In this document: positions 43,737 through 61,723 of the stretch, piece after piece
Numbering within the stretch: the stretch's first letter is position 1
Layout of the letters: each line of letters begins with the position of its first letter
NCBI RefSeq assembly: GCF_020966755.1
Contig: NZ_JAJKFT010000010.1
Location: 620,001 to 684,000 of the forward strand
DNA length: 64,000 bases
DNA from: Blastopirellula sediminis
GTDB taxonomy: Bacteria > Planctomycetota > Planctomycetia > Pirellulales > Pirellulaceae
Direction: 5' to 3'
Translations under genes and position numbers: made by a program
The notes under the pieces: generated by a model
Told to the model about the DNA's origin: nothing
The model's database searches: none
The model's input: the letters and a program-made list of their open reading frames with translations, nothing else

Positions 43737-45260
43737 ATGAAGAAATCGCCTGGTCTTCTTCTGTTCGTTGCGATTTTCGCGACGACCTCGATGATTTCGG
43801 TCGCTGCGGCCGAAGAAGGTTTCAAGCCGATCTTTGACGGCAAGACGCTCAATGGCTGGCGCGGCAAAGAGCAATTCTGGAGCGTCAAAGATGGCACGAT
43901 CACCGGCCAGACCACCTCGGAAAATCCGACCAAAGGAAACACCTTCCTGATCTGGGATCAGGGAACGGTCGACGACTTCGAGTTGAAGCTGAAATACAAA
44001 ATTGTCGGCGGCAACTCCGGCATTCAATATCGCTCGACCGACCTCGGCGATTTCGTCGTCAAAGGCTATCAAGCTGACATCGACAGCGGCGACACCTACA
44101 GCGGCATCAACTACGAAGAACGTGGCCGCGGCATCATCGCCAATCGCGGCATCAAATCGACCATCTTCGACAAGAACGAAGGGAACAAGAACGAACGCTT
44201 CGCCGAATCGGCCGACATCCAAGCGAAGATCAAAAAGGAAGATTGGAACGAATACCACATCGTCGCCAAGGGGAATCACCTCACGCACTACATCAACGGC
44301 GTGAAGACCTCGGAAGTGATCGACGAAGGCAAGAAGGACAATCGCACGAGCGGCATCCTGGCGCTGCAGCTGCACGCCGGACCGCCGATGGTCGTCCAGT
44401 TCAAAGACATCGAACTGAAACGGACCAAGCTCGAAGACGGCAAGAAGAAGGTCGTCTTCGTTCCCGGCAAGCCGAGCCACGGTTGGGGCCAGCACGAACA
44501 CTCTCCTGGCTGCCGATTGCTGATGATCGCGCTGATGGAAAACGTCCCGAACATCGAAGCCTCGATCTATCCCGGCGGCTGGCCGGAAGATCCGACCGCC
44601 TTTGATAACGCTGATGCGGTCGTCGTTTATTGCGACGGCGGCGGCGGACACCTGCTGAACGCTCACCTGGCCCAGTTCGACGAACTGATGAAAAAGGGAG
44701 TCGGCCTGGCCGCCATTCACTACGGCGTCGAAGTGCCGAAAGGAGAGCCGGGGGACAAGTTCGTCGACTGGATCGGCGGCTACTTTGAAACCGACTGGAG
44801 CGTCAACCCGCACTGGACCGCCGACTTCAAGGCGATCCCCAGTCATCCGGTCGCCAACGGCGTAAAGCCCTTCTCGATCAATGACGAGTGGTACTACAAC
44901 ATGCGGTTTCGCAACGACATGGAAGGGGTCACCCCGATCCTGACCGCGGTTCCGCCGAAGTCGACCCTCGATCGTCCCGATGGCCCACACAGCGGCAATC
45001 CTCACGTCCGCGCCATGCTCGGCCAACCGCAGCACGTCGCGTGGGCTGCCGAACGTCCCGATGGCGGACGCGGCTTTGGTTTCACCGGCGGTCACTTCCA
45101 CACCAACTGGGGTGACGACAACTTCCGCAAGGTCGTCCTGAACGCGATCGTTTGGGTCGCCGGCGACGAAGTTCCGGCTGGCGGCATCGAATCGAAGTCG
45201 CTCACCAAGGATGACTTGGAAGGACTCCTCGGTCCCAATCCGAACGAAAAAAAAAAGTAA
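43737..45260 (+). CDS. Exported DUF1080 + ThuA-like protein (possibly the first half of a fused protein)
   Basis: 507 residues. Signal peptide LLLFVAIFATTSMISVAAAE. Residues about 27-230 are a DUF1080 domain (3-keto-disaccharide hydrolase-like, concanavalin fold): FKPIFDGKTLNGWRGK, GNSGIQYRSTDLGDFVVKGYQADI, and MVVQFKDIELKR. Residues about 240-480 form a ThuA-like (class I amidotransferase-fold) domain: KKVVFVPGKPSHGWGQHEHS, AVVVYCDGGGGHLL, VGLAAIHYGVEVP, and GRGFGFTGGHFHTNWGDDNFRKV. Both domains occur in planctomycete carbohydrate metabolism. The last codons run through ten A residues into TAA; in the -1 frame the sequence stays open into the next ORF, so this may not be the natural C-terminus. 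Confidence 0.9.
   Translation: MKKSPGLLLFVAIFATTSMISVAAAEEGFKPIFDGKTLNGWRGKEQFWSVKDGTITGQTTSENPTKGNTFLIWDQGTVDDFELKLKYKIVGGNSGIQYRSTDLGDFVVKGYQADIDSGDTYSGINYEERGRGIIANRGIKSTIFDKNEGNKNERFAESADIQAKIKKEDWNEYHIVAKGNHLTHYINGVKTSEVIDEGKKDNRTSGILALQLHAGPPMVVQFKDIELKRTKLEDGKKKVVFVPGKPSHGWGQHEHSPGCRLLMIALMENVPNIEASIYPGGWPEDPTAFDNADAVVVYCDGGGGHLLNAHLAQFDELMKKGVGLAAIHYGVEVPKGEPGDKFVDWIGGYFETDWSVNPHWTADFKAIPSHPVANGVKPFSINDEWYYNMRFRNDMEGVTPILTAVPPKSTLDRPDGPHSGNPHVRAMLGQPQHVAWAAERPDGGRGFGFTGGHFHTNWGDDNFRKVVLNAIVWVAGDEVPAGGIESKSLTKDDLEGLLGPNPNEKKK
45247..45256 (+). other. A10 homopolymer, possible slippage/frameshift site
   Basis: Ten consecutive A residues span the last codons of the DUF1080/ThuA ORF. One extra A in the message (or a -1 shift) joins that frame to the frame of the NPCBM/heme ORF, which has no stop between 45248 and 48749. 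Runs of nine or more A are known slippage sites for bacterial RNA polymerase and also frequent sequencing-error sites. Confidence 0.7.
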
Positions 45261-45340
45261 CTGAGGTTCAGACCGCAGCGGCTAAAGAGCCCGCCAAGAA
45301 AAACGACAAGGCGGGCCAGCCGAAGTTCAAAAGCCAAGTC

Positions 45341-48300
45341 GTGACCACGCGTACGCCTGGTCACGCGGTCGACATCGACGTCGACATTACCGGCGCGAAA
45401 CAGCTCTACCTGGTCGTGACCGACGGCGGCGACGGATTCTCGTGCGACTGGGCCGACTGGATCGATCCGAAGTTGACCGGCCCGGCCGGTGAAAAGAAGC
45501 TGACGGACCTGAACTGGAAGTCGGCCGTCACCCAGTGGAAATCGGTCAAGAAGGACCGCAACGTCGAAGGGCAACCGATGCACGTCGACGGCAAGTTGGT
45601 CGTCAACGGCATCGGCACTCACGCCAACTCGATCATCGCCTACGATCTGCCGGAAGGTTATACCCGCTTAACGGCGAAGGGTGGCCTCGACAACGGCGGC
45701 AGCGGACAACAAGGGGGCCAGGTCACCAGCGTCGCTTTCTCGGTCTATACCGAAAACCCGCCGGCTTTCTCGAACATCTCGTCCGGCGACACGGCGCCCA
45801 GTCATGAGGCCGAAAACGCCCTCTCCGGTCTCGACGTCTACGAAGGACTCGAAGCGACTCTCGCCGCTTCGGAGCCGACGCTGAAAAGCCTGACCAACCT
45901 GGACGTCGACCATCGCGGCCGCGTCTGGGTTTGCGACGTGATGAACTATCGCGGCAACAGCGGCTCGCGTCCCGAAGGGGATCGCATCCTGATCCTGGAA
46001 GACGAAGACGGCGACGGCGTTTGCGAAAAGACGAAGGTCTACTATCAAGGTCGCGACGTCGATACCGCGATGGGGATCTGCGTCCTCGGCAACAAGGTGA
46101 TCGTCTCGGCCACGCCGAACATCATCGTCTTCACCGACACCGACGGCGACGACAAGCCCGATCAAAAGGAGATGCTCTTCACCAAGACCGGGCAGCCGCA
46201 GCATGACCACTCGGACCACTCCTTCCTGTTCGGTCCCGATGGCAAGCTCTACTGGAACTTCGGCAACACCGGCCGCCAGGTCTTTGATAAAGATGGCAAG
46301 CCGGTCGTCGACATCCATGGCCGCGAAGTGGTCGACAACGGCAAACCGTTCTTTGGCGGCATGCCGTTCCGCTGCAATCTGGACGGCAGCGAGTTCGAAG
46401 TGTTGGCCCACAACTTCCGTAACAACTACGAAGTGACGGTCGACTCGTTCGGTACGCTGTGGCAAAGCGACAACGACGACGACGGTAACCGCGGCGTCCG
46501 CATCAACTACGTGATGGAACAAGGCAACTTCGGTTACCTGGATCAGATGACCGGCGCCGGCTGGCGCGAACCCCGCACCGGCATGAACGAAGAGATCCCG
46601 CTCCGTCACTGGCACCTCAACGACCCCGGCGTCGTTCCCAACTTCGTGCAAACCGGCGCCGGTTCGCCGACCGGGATCTGCGTTTACGAAGGTCGTTTGC
46701 TGCCGAAGATCTTCTGGGACCAGGTGATCCACTGCGACGCCGGACCGAACGTCGTTCGCGCCTATCCGGCCGAAAAGGATGGCTCCGGCTACAAAGGCGA
46801 AATGGTCAACATCCTGCATGGCGCTCGCGACAACTGGTTCCGCCCGGCTGACGTCTGCGTCGCTCCGGATGGCTCGCTCTTCGTCTCCGACTGGTACGAT
46901 CCCGGCGTCGGCGGTCACGGCCAACGCGATCTCGATCGCGGCCGCTTGTTCCGCGTCGCGCCGAAGGGGGTCGGCTACAACGTGCCGAAGTTGAACTTCG
47001 ACACGATCGACGGCGCCCTGGCCGCGCTCGAAAACCCCAACCTTTCGGCTCGCTACATGGCGTGGACCGCGCTCCACAACCAAGGCGCGAAGGCGGAACC
47101 GGGGCTGAAGAAGATGTTTGAAACCAACGCCAACCCGCGCGTTCGCGCTCGGGCCTTGTGGCTGCTTGGCAAGATCGAAGGCCGCGGCCCGGAATATGTC
47201 GAAGCGGCCCTCAACGACAAGGACGCCGACATCCGGATCACCGGCATCCGTCTGGCCAAAGAGCTGAAGCTGCCGGTCGAACGAGTCGTCGCCAAGGTCG
47301 TGAACGATCCGTCGCCGCAAGTTCGTCGCGAAGCGGCGATCTCGCTCCGCTGGGCCGATAGCCCCGCGGCGGCCAAGCTGTGGGCGCAACTCGCCGCTCA
47401 GCATGACGGCAAAGATCGCTGGTACCTGGAAGCGCTCGGCATTGGCGCCGACCTGAACTGGGACGCTTGTCTCGCCGCCTACCTCAGCGAAGTGGGCGAC
47501 AAGTGGAACACGCCGGCCGGTCGCGACATCGTTTGGCGCAGCCGCGCCGAGCGGACGCCCGGCATGTTGGCCGCGATCATTCAAGATCCGGCGACGCCGT
47601 ACGAAGCTCTGCCGCGTTACTTCCGCGCCTTCGACTTCCAGGCGAAGGGAGACGCGAAGAGCCAAGTGCTGGCCGACCTCGCTTTCTCCGGCGCCGGCGC
47701 CGATCCGCAGGCCCAGTCGTTAATCCTCAGCGAATCGATTAGCCGACTTGGCGGGTTCGACATCGCGAAGAATCCGCAGCACGCTGCGGCGCTGAAGTCG
47801 GCGCTCGAAAAGCTGGCCGGCACGCCGATCTTCGTCGACCTGGTCGACAAGTTCAACGTGACCGATCGCTACGAAGACCTGCTGGCGATCGCCCAAGCTC
47901 TACCGAGCGAAGCGACCGGCGCCGCCGCGATGAAGGTGCTGCTGGAGAAGAACCAACGCGACCTGGTGTTGAAGGCGATCGACGGGAAGGACCTGGCCAA
48001 AGCGATCGCTACCACCGAAGCGGTTGGCAACTCGGCCGCTGGTCCGTCGATCGGCATCATGCAGAAGTTGGTCGACGACGGCTCGAAGGACCTCGCTCTC
48101 CGTCGCATCGCCGTGAAGACGCTCGCCGCCAACCGCGGCAGCGCCAACAAGCTGGTCGCGCTCGCCAAAGCCGGCAAGCTCGATCCGGCGCTGATGCAAG
48201 CGGCAGCCGCTCCGTTGACCGCCTCGACCTGGCAAGAGGTGCGTGACCAGGCCAACGCGATCTTCCCGGCCCCGCCGAGCAAGGACAACAAGCCCCTTCC

Positions 48301-48751
48301 GCCGCTGTCGGAATTGGCGAAGATGCACGGCGACGTCGCCAATGGCAAGAAGGTCTTCGCCGGCGAAGCGACTTGCTCGAAGTGCCACGTTGTGAACAAC
48401 GAAGGAAAAGAGGTTGGTCCGAACCTGAGCGAAATCGGCTCGAAGCTGAGCCGCGAAGCGATGTTCGAATCGATCCTCTATCCGAGCGCCGGCATCAGCC
48501 ACAACTACGAGAACTTCGCGATTCTGCTCGACAACGGCACGGCGATCACCGGGCTGTTGGTGAGCGAAACCGACGAAAAGGTGACCATCAAGAACCAAGA
48601 AGGTCTCGTTCGCAGCTTCTCGCAAGACGAAATCGAAGAGATGAAAAAGCTCCCGACTTCGCTCATGCCGGCTGACCTGCAAAAGCTGATGACCGTCCAG
48701 GAACTGGTCGACGTGGCCGCCTACCTGGAAACGCTGAAAAAGAAGAACTAA
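45341..48751 (+). CDS. NPCBM + dehydrogenase-like propeller + HEAT + cytochrome c (planctomycete heme-binding protein)
   Basis: 1,136 residues if it starts at the GTG at 45341, but this start has no ribosome site and no signal peptide and cuts into the NPCBM domain, whose first strand (PKFKSQVVTTRTPGHA) begins upstream in the same open frame. Domains in order are: NPCBM (to about 140; YLVVTDGGDGFSCDWADW), a sorbosone-dehydrogenase-like propeller (VYEGLEATLAASEPTLKSL, VWVCDVMNYRGN, FVSDWYDPGVGGHG), HEAT-like helices (about 545-950), and a cytochrome c domain with CSKCH at 1012-1016 and VGPNLSEIGSKLSREAM followed by the planctomycete-type tail. A c-haem needs export, which supports fusion with the upstream signal-bearing ORF through the A10 tract. 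Confidence 0.9.
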   Translation: MTTRTPGHAVDIDVDITGAKQLYLVVTDGGDGFSCDWADWIDPKLTGPAGEKKLTDLNWKSAVTQWKSVKKDRNVEGQPMHVDGKLVVNGIGTHANSIIAYDLPEGYTRLTAKGGLDNGGSGQQGGQVTSVAFSVYTENPPAFSNISSGDTAPSHEAENALSGLDVYEGLEATLAASEPTLKSLTNLDVDHRGRVWVCDVMNYRGNSGSRPEGDRILILEDEDGDGVCEKTKVYYQGRDVDTAMGICVLGNKVIVSATPNIIVFTDTDGDDKPDQKEMLFTKTGQPQHDHSDHSFLFGPDGKLYWNFGNTGRQVFDKDGKPVVDIHGREVVDNGKPFFGGMPFRCNLDGSEFEVLAHNFRNNYEVTVDSFGTLWQSDNDDDGNRGVRINYVMEQGNFGYLDQMTGAGWREPRTGMNEEIPLRHWHLNDPGVVPNFVQTGAGSPTGICVYEGRLLPKIFWDQVIHCDAGPNVVRAYPAEKDGSGYKGEMVNILHGARDNWFRPADVCVAPDGSLFVSDWYDPGVGGHGQRDLDRGRLFRVAPKGVGYNVPKLNFDTIDGALAALENPNLSARYMAWTALHNQGAKAEPGLKKMFETNANPRVRARALWLLGKIEGRGPEYVEAALNDKDADIRITGIRLAKELKLPVERVVAKVVNDPSPQVRREAAISLRWADSPAAAKLWAQLAAQHDGKDRWYLEALGIGADLNWDACLAAYLSEVGDKWNTPAGRDIVWRSRAERTPGMLAAIIQDPATPYEALPRYFRAFDFQAKGDAKSQVLADLAFSGAGADPQAQSLILSESISRLGGFDIAKNPQHAAALKSALEKLAGTPIFVDLVDKFNVTDRYEDLLAIAQALPSEATGAAAMKVLLEKNQRDLVLKAIDGKDLAKAIATTEAVGNSAAGPSIGIMQKLVDDGSKDLALRRIAVKTLAANRGSANKLVALAKAGKLDPALMQAAAAPLTASTWQEVRDQANAIFPAPPSKDNKPLPPLSELAKMHGDVANGKKVFAGEATCSKCHVVNNEGKEVGPNLSEIGSKLSREAMFESILYPSAGISHNYENFAILLDNGTAITGLLVSETDEKVTIKNQEGLVRSFSQDEIEEMKKLPTSLMPADLQKLMTVQELVDVAAYLETLKKKN

Positions 48752-61413: not shown

Positions 61414-61723
61414 TCACGACGCGAGAGGCAGTCGAATAATGTTCCGCGAACAGCCTTCGACGGCAGCTCGCCGCGCTTGAAAAGATAGAGTCCTGCACCG
61501 GAATACTACCTGGTAGTTTTCTGCGGATCGCAAGTCGAACTATCTGCACGGATGCGGATGGCGAGATTTGAAATCGGCTCAACGCGTGTAGCTTGTGAAT
61601 AAAGACCCGCAACTTGGCCGCGTCAAGGATGACGCCGGCCCAGTAGCATCCAATCGCTCCCGGAAGAGCAACGGATCCTAAGCCCCCCTGGGATACCGAG
61701 ACTTTCCGGGGGCCTTTTTTTTT
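61414..61723 (+). ncRNA. Candidate non-coding transcript of about 310 bases
   Basis: The unit is bounded by the promoter at 61379 and a hairpin with a T9 tail ending at 61723. A 5' stem-loop (GCCTC and GAGGC arms at 61412-61430) and a second near 61506-61518 (ACTAC, CTG loop, GTAGT) can form. There is no credible coding frame with a ribosome site. It does not match tmRNA, SRP RNA, RNase P RNA or a riboswitch that I can recognise. The promoter, terminator and lack of ORF are seen; that it is a transcribed RNA is inferred. Confidence 0.4.
61682..61723 (+). terminator. Terminator ending the candidate small RNA
   Basis: GCCCCC (61682-61687) pairs with GGGGGC (61708-61713), with extra pairs inside, followed by nine T. 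Confidence 0.85.

Follow-up and report, generated by a model that had tools for sequence, protein, structure and literature searches.

A putative transcriptional slippage site at an A10 domain joint of a secreted planctomycete DUF1080-ThuA protein

Introduction

Bacterial genes known to make use of slippage so far comprise scattered cases, dnaX and insertion sequences. The described case closest to the gene treated here is tssM1 of Citrobacter rodentium, which carries an A11 tract with 20-25% slippage and of which both forms are needed (PMC4256274). In Thermus thermophilus, transcriptional slippage on an A9 run in dnaX leads to tau and gamma, and about half of the product is short (PMC1088944). 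Buchnera and Blochmannia endosymbionts harbor out-of-frame poly(A) genes that are kept alive by polymerase slippage (PMC5009743). Ribosomes, too, can shift on A-runs: the frameshift site of Escherichia coli dnaX is A_AAA_AAG with a nearby stop, and this heptamer is known as the strongest one for bacterial ribosomal -1 shifts. In the literature we searched, which left most subscription journals out of scope, there is no report of slippage in planctomycetes, and the main text of the GeneTack survey, which covered two planctomycete genomes, makes no mention of Rhodopirellula, ThuA or cytochrome.

The window analyzed here is a stretch of 64,000 nucleotides from Blastopirellula sediminis (NCBI RefSeq assembly GCF_020966755.1, contig NZ_JAJKFT010000010.1, positions 620,001 to 684,000). 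The original prediction, made without database searches, proposed programmed slippage that fuses a DUF1080/ThuA protein to an NPCBM/haem protein at an A10 tract within it. The gene concerned, termed the window gene in the following, resembles tssM1 in that the A-run lies just before a stop codon and the full-length form needs slippage (PMC4256274). In Yersinia pseudotuberculosis tssM3, a homologue with an in-frame A-run is shortened by slippage, and the phases of tssM1 and tssM3 are those found among the planctomycete relatives (PMC4256274). Runs are sporadic among tssM genes, whereas those of planctomycetes occur in several gene families and genera. Features shared with Thermus dnaX are an A9-A10 tract at a domain joint, non-fused frames that stop nearby and two C-terminal variants (PMC1088944, PMC5009743). 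However, the long Thermus product is the zero-frame product and slippage shortens it, whereas the long product of the window gene needs the slip; moreover, the window gene and a second gene described below encode different, secreted proteins. Slippage on A or T runs sets the product ratio of Shigella mxiE, spa13, spa33 and mxiA in a similar manner (PMC5009743, PMC1088944, PMC4256274), but these genes encode parts of type III secretion systems and a regulator. The endosymbiont genes likewise are out of frame at poly(A) and depend on polymerase slippage, but reside in AT-rich reduced genomes, whereas the GC content in the window region is 56-65%. With E. coli dnaX and its -1 ribosomal frameshift, the window gene shares a zero-frame A_AAA_AAG before a nearby stop; planctomycete runs differ in consisting of 9-10 A's, in having no clear stimulators and in that one orthologue needs a +1 shift.

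Tract, reading frames and predicted products

The A10 tract is read from the sequence at positions 45247-45256 of the window on the plus strand. It lies at the end of ORF1 (43737..45260, plus strand), which encodes the short product of 507 amino acids, consisting of a DUF1080 (3-keto-disaccharide hydrolase-like) part and a ThuA part. The former matches PF06439 3keto-disac_hyd at 43818..44420 (plus strand, residues 28-228, E 1.9e-40) and the latter PF06283 ThuA at 44607..45158 (plus strand, residues 291-474, E 8.9e-19). A Sec-type signal is recognizable, by eye only, at the N-terminus of ORF1 (approximately 43737-43811), in agreement with the signal peptide originally assigned to the upstream ORF. 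In the zero frame ORF1 ends ...CCG AAC GAA AAA AAA AAG TAA, which includes the heptamer A_AAA_AAG, with the TAA of the short product at 45258..45260 (plus strand) and a predicted C-terminus ...NEKKK. The original prediction had the stop two codons after the ten A residues, and this needs correction: the order is A10-G-TAA, and a single base separates the T of the stop from the last A. What held is that the A10 joins two ORFs via the -1 frame and that this frame has no stop from 45248 to 48749. It extends over 45248..48751 on the plus strand, comprises 1167 sense codons and meets its first stop, TAA, at 48749-48751. The third (+1) frame is closed by TGA at 45262-45264, two to three codons past the tract. 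Given one A more in the mRNA, the fusion would by simple arithmetic have 507 + 1164 = 1671 residues, 1164 of which come after KKK, and its predicted junction sequence is PNEKKKVTEVQTAAAK. By sequence there are two defined products of 507 and 1671 amino acids, switched by an indel at the run, and to this extent the anticipated sizes of 507 and roughly 1,670 residues held; that both proteins are produced is inferred.

Behind the tract, all on the plus strand, the -1 frame encodes a K/A/P-rich linker and the start of the NPCBM domain (45257..45340), preceding the first post-tract start-type codon, and then the best stretch of PF08305 NPCBM (45491..45772), the TIGR02604 PVC-type heme-binding CxxCH protein N-terminal domain, with a match to PF23500 DUF7133 as well (45845..46969, E 8.5e-94), HEAT_2 repeats (47201..47434) and the TIGR02603 putative heme-binding domain (48329..48733), where Cytochrom_C matches are also found and the motif CSKCH can be read from the sequence at 48374-48388. 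Both TIGR matches exceed their curated cut-offs (314.9 bits against 122.2 for TIGR02604, 115.2 against 68.15 for TIGR02603). The first start-type codon after the tract, GTG at 45341-45343, corresponds to residue 32 of the -1 frame and lies 80 nt past the stop; neither it nor the other first start-type codons of the downstream frame are accompanied by a Shine-Dalgarno-like motif, in agreement with the claim that the downstream ORF has no ribosome site. The missing first NPCBM strand, predicted between 45257 and 45341, held only in part: in an AlphaFold model of the start of the -1 frame (three sequences, 185 aa, mean pLDDT 75) confidence sets in at around residue 22, ten residues ahead of the GTG codon, but the strands there are only two residues long. 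RNA folds around the window tract are unremarkable, with no stimulatory structure evident, and no SD-like stimulator was seen by eye just upstream of it.

The window gene in relatives

A search of 241 genomes of the family yielded 70 with a strong DUF1080-ThuA match, and 72 loci were read, i.e. the window, those of 68 further family genomes and three from other families. Fifty-two of them, the window included, continue into an NPCBM or TIGR02604 part (fused-type loci) and the other 20 are standalone DUF1080-ThuA genes, so the short and the long protein both exist as ordinary genes. At the joint of ThuA and the next domain, a run of at least nine A's is present in 16 of the 52 fused-type loci. 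In relatives with a run its length is A9-A11. Ten of the 16 loci are in frame, five are broken at -1 (G000, the window's genome, and G030, G195, G196 and G035) and one at +1 (G001). All 36 fused-type loci without a run are in frame, as are 46 of the 52 overall.

Within the window's genus, A9 or A10 is kept at the joint in four of four genomes, two of which are out of frame (G000, G001) and two in frame (G002, G003). G001 possesses A10 like G000 but needs the opposite shift (+1), the difference in frame being made by a flanking indel. In genus g28, three of four genomes are out of frame and the zero-frame stop is at most two codons from the run each time despite differing linkers; the fourth genome has no run and is in frame. 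A single A separates G035 (A10, split) from its close relative G261 (A11, fused). When the non-fused frames behind 21 tracts are considered, 36 of 42 stop within seven codons. Mapped on a tree, the run has been gained or lost at least nine times, and the broken state has changed at least four times. As the frame state differs between sister species, it is the tract (in some clades) that is conserved in the window gene rather than the break.

Breaks at A10 are also found between DUF1080 and ThuA in G022, G004 and G111 and between ThuA and NPCBM in G187, and G098 has a break within DUF1080 without a run. An order-wide search added 20 further stretches, three of them of the fused type, and none has a run of eight or more A's in the gene (two stretches reach the contig end behind ThuA). 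Purifying selection acts on both parts of the split gene: for the pair G000/G001 dN/dS amounts to 0.112 upstream and 0.162 downstream (1139 codons, no stops), and for the pair G030/G195 to 0.094 and 0.102 for the two parts. The stops that appear for G196 and G198 in the dN/dS comparison stem from hit ranges that overrun the gene end.

Several relatives exhibit a frame change between HEAT and CxxCH, which we considered as a further recoding site and rejected as it represents gene fission. The split-off CxxCH gene begins with ATG and signal-like residues in 12 of 14 loci of other genera (L085, L090, L091, L093, L098, L099, L101, L106, L125, L128, L080, L094, L088 and L077; judged by eye, with L093 and L128 unclear).

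Frequency of A-runs

The 7.05-Mb genome G000 contains eight A10 runs, and around none of the other seven is there a sense-strand open frame of more than 156 codons. In G035 (7.8 Mb), the sole A10 of the genome sits at the ThuA/next-domain joint. We counted 15 sense runs of A>=10 in the DUF1080-ThuA gene, distributed over 13 genomes, versus 0.14 expected if A10 were evenly spread (the count covers 69 of the 70 strongly matching family genomes and leaves out the G012 locus). Lysine-rich linkers alone are not a sufficient explanation, because shuffling of synonymous codons (51 genes, G098 dropped) gives about seven linker runs of A>=9 versus 20 observed, and none of 400 shuffles reaches 20. As about seven such runs still arise under this null model, some of the tracts may be due to chance.

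Among the other A10 runs of G000, six out of seven adjoin repeated GGTCCAGTCCAC-type sequence that looks REP-like, and the same holds for several runs in G001 and G002 (L032-L037, L131, L132, L134, L136, L248, L250). The window itself carries an A9 run at 61715-61723 on the minus strand, where the longest open frame has 183 codons and no gene is assigned. Another A9 of G000 is located in frame close to the beginning of an ORF that by eye resembles SmpB (L256, G000:C10:373900-377900).

A second gene: phosphonate-binding protein and PQQ propeller

At one of the 26 A9 runs of G000, the reading frame breaks between a secreted phosphonate-binding protein (PF12974) and a PQQ propeller (PF13360). The run resides on the minus strand at G000:C2:89261-89269 (L246, G000:C2:87300-91300), belongs to an A9-GTAA sequence and is read GTA AAA AAA AAG TAA; the -1 frame is open for 390 codons and has no start of its own. 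We examined 47 loci of this gene, taken from 33 of a set of 51 genomes (G133 and G137 found through the motif described below, 18 genomes left out) together with 14 loci of 13 further genomes. A -1 split is present in 35 loci and a +1 split in none, the run being A9 in 32, A10 in two and A8 in one. Among the 12 in-frame loci, nine lack a run of seven or more, two have A10 and one A8; the A10 of G689 and G206 is in frame where relatives have a split A9. Splits extend to another family of the class (f21, seven of nine loci), and the gene is in frame without a run in one locus from another family of the order and in the four loci that represent three families outside the class. In this way tract and break are shown to recur beyond the window gene. 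In 33 of the 35 split loci there is no start codon between the run and the propeller. Selection acts on each of the two halves, with dN/dS of 0.04-0.15 in the five pairs that could be scored (0.06-0.14 for the propeller); a sixth pair is saturated.

In 28 split second genes the zero frame contains AAA AAA AA(G/C), and the base that precedes it is an A in 27 of them, where 4.2 would be expected from the codon usage of the same genes (log10 P -24.1). The rows of this test include relatives and hence lack full independence, and G133 and G137 were left out as they had been found through the motif. The preceding codon usually specifies valine or alanine, and the sole exception is the A8 locus of G069; five split loci with other zero-frame forms have A9 or A10. 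The extra A points at selection for nine A's in a row, a length on which bacterial polymerases slip, as in Thermus dnaX; it is no proof of a polymerase slip, because the added A also creates a second heptamer, A_AAA_AAA.

The A9-GTAR motif at domain joints

The 13-mer A9-GTAR occurs at two places in G000 and at two in G001, in both cases in the window gene and the second gene, and once each in G030 and G196 within the window gene. Summed over the 241 genomes, the motif is not commoner than its reversed control (55 versus 63 places), and it is its position rather than its frequency that is telling. Scoring in the AAG-TAR register covered 52 of the 55 sites, with G001:C3, G206 (other register) and G110:C605 left out; more than 100 open codons both before (zero frame) and after (-1 frame) were found at 28 of the 52, and at none when the +1 frame was considered. 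These 28 joining sites fall into the second gene (15), ThuA and NPCBM (four), DUF1080 and ThuA (two), DUF1080 and a cytochrome c or weak GH2_N-like part (three), an unassigned part and DUF7133 (one) and a collagen-binding-like part and kelch (in three species).

At L351, L352 and L353 (G234, G237 and G239) A9-GTAG joins a frame of 522-529 codons to a long -1 frame, with collagen-binding-like and kelch matches in L351. At L348, L354 and L357 (G005, G252 and G258) a DUF1080-type protein ends KKK-stop at A9-GTAR and is followed by a long -1 frame; the part behind the motif has a cytochrome c match in L348 and a weak GH2_N-like match in L354.

Proposed mechanism and rival explanations

We propose that RNA polymerase adds and, less often, drops A's on runs of A9-A10, which would result in a mixed pool of mRNAs. 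Unslipped mRNA would run immediately into TAA and specify the secreted DUF1080-ThuA protein of 507 residues, and mRNA with one additional A would lead into the -1 frame and specify a secreted DUF1080-ThuA-NPCBM-TIGR02604-HEAT-CxxCH protein of 1671 residues, in which export of the haem part would rest on the signal peptide of ORF1. Other planctomycete genes may have a similar device at their joints, the foremost being the joint of phosphonate-binding protein and PQQ propeller. The slip in RNA and its rate are inferred, and so are the two proteins. We regard it as highly probable that recoding, by polymerase or ribosome taken together, fuses the two ORFs; this conclusion is drawn from sequence, and no RNA or protein data are at hand. 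The fusion is backed by the 46 of 52 fused-type loci in one frame at the joint combined with purifying selection on both parts, and by the recurrence of an A-run split in three genera combined with conservation, across two families of the class, of a similar arrangement in the second gene. The proposal of programmed slippage is supported by this comparative evidence, with the RNA step remaining an inference; the comparison of orthologous loci, which had been suggested as a check, did reveal fused genes as well as A-runs kept in some clades.

The rival that deserves most weight is programmed -1 ribosomal frameshifting of the E. coli dnaX type, in which a tandem tRNA-Lys slip on A_AAA_AAG before the stop would create the same fusion. 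The window meets the heptamer criterion with A_AAA_AAG TAA, all 35 breaks of the second gene are -1 and their heptamers are A_AAA_AAG in 26 cases, A_AAA_AAA in five and A_AAA_AAC in four. A ribosomal shift would also explain the excess of SD-like motifs 4-18 nt upstream, which precede eight of these 35 sites against a background of 8.3%. However, it needs just 6-7 A's, and 34 of the 35 runs consist of nine or ten, with the extra A kept against codon usage; run length beyond ribosomal need is an observed fact. Neither is there a clear downstream structure at the second-gene sites (mean z -0.63 vs -0.29 in the control, pseudoknots not covered). Runs occur in all three codon phases at the second-gene sites, and in-frame A10 copies exist in both genes. 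Finally, breaks are not always -1: the orthologue in G001 requires +1, which favors slippage because slippage can provide this shift and a -1 ribosomal slip cannot. A ribosomal shift appears unlikely, though it is not excluded, and programmed transcriptional slippage at the A10 domain joint is probably the better account, with slippage in the RNA being inferred.

The remaining rivals fare worse. Phase variation at the DNA level, by which tract length would vary between cells and switch the fusion on and off, could be seen in the contrast of G035 (A10, split) and G261 (A11, fused) and in G689 and G206, whose A10 is in frame against the split A9 of relatives; yet run length is strikingly uniform in the split second genes (A9 in 32 of 35) and the frame difference of G000 and G001 is caused by a flanking indel with A10 in both, which makes this explanation most improbable. 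Even less probable is an error of sequencing or assembly that hides a true A11 or A8 and a plain single ORF. This was originally named as the main rival, homopolymers are indeed error-prone, and in the sister species G002 and G003 the gene runs through in a single frame. It has become a poor one, as breaks recur in relatives and in the second gene: the sister G001 is split in the other direction, also with A10, other genera have similar breaks, and the second gene is split at A8-A10 in 35 of 47 loci, always at -1, in assemblies of 35 species, whereas random errors would not leave one register only. A recent frameshift mutation, after which ORF1 works alone and the downstream part decays, would be compatible with the 20 of 72 standalone loci, which imply that the short form can suffice, and with a frame state that varies between sisters. 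There is very little room for it, however, when the downstream frame is intact over 1139 codons in G000 and G001 with dN/dS of 0.162, when the split is present in three species of genus g28 and when splits of the second gene occur in two families of the class, its propeller having dN/dS of 0.06-0.14 in the five pairs out of six that could be scored. Least likely of all is that the downstream ORF is translated, independently or by coupling, from a start codon of its own, for which the GTG at 45341 is available 80 nt beyond the stop. Start signals are lacking: an SD-like motif is absent, and a haem protein made in this way would have no signal peptide. In the second gene, the stretch from the run to the following domain contains no start codon in 33 of 35 loci, and gene fissions in the family show ATG and a signal-like start (12 of 14, by eye).

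Taking transcriptional slippage as the preferred account, it is a reasonable guess from the domains, and no more than an inference, that the cell gains a free secreted sugar-acting enzyme plus a version tied to a periplasmic haem protein; that both forms are useful is likewise inferred. We lean, with reservations, towards a bolder reading according to which planctomycetes generally use A9-A10 slippage at joints of large modular, mostly secreted proteins, such that one gene would provide both a shorter and a longer version of its product in a fixed proportion, and this use would have been kept across large evolutionary distances. It would cover at least five arrangements (ThuA and NPCBM-haem, DUF1080 and ThuA, phosphonate-binding and PQQ propeller, DUF1080 and cytochrome-type, collagen-binding-like and kelch) in addition to dnaX, and the phase of the tract could flip in evolution because slippage serves both phases. 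Compared with the scattered cases known, breaks occur here at one and the same joint in 35 of 47 loci and in two families of a class, always at A8-A10, and a comparable arrangement recurs in further modular proteins. Should RNA data confirm the slip, gene calling would be cutting such proteins in two, recoding would count among the ordinary features of gene expression in planctomycetes, and one altered tract would suffice to test what use a cell has for a free enzyme along with a haem- or propeller-tethered form.

dnaX and further A-runs at domain joints

An A9 or A10 near the gamma/tau junction of dnaX was found in eight of 14 genomes (L157, L159, L160, L161, L162, L163, L151 (A10), L158 (A9)), in frame and with stops in both other frames. 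This arrangement is of the Thermus type and counts in favor of slippage. The dnaX genes of G000-G003, G022 and G035 have no run of seven or more A's. As its dnaX lacks a run, the window's genus provides no dnaX control; in G035 the split window gene is present without a dnaX run.

Other joints with A10 were encountered in large ORFs of different types. On the minus strand of L149 (G009:C1:83700-87700), a polyketide-synthase-like ORF has a -1 break at A10 between phosphopantetheine and KR domains. Large ORFs of L144 (G196) and L147 (G030) contain an in-frame A10 between a class-III aminotransferase and a thioesterase domain.
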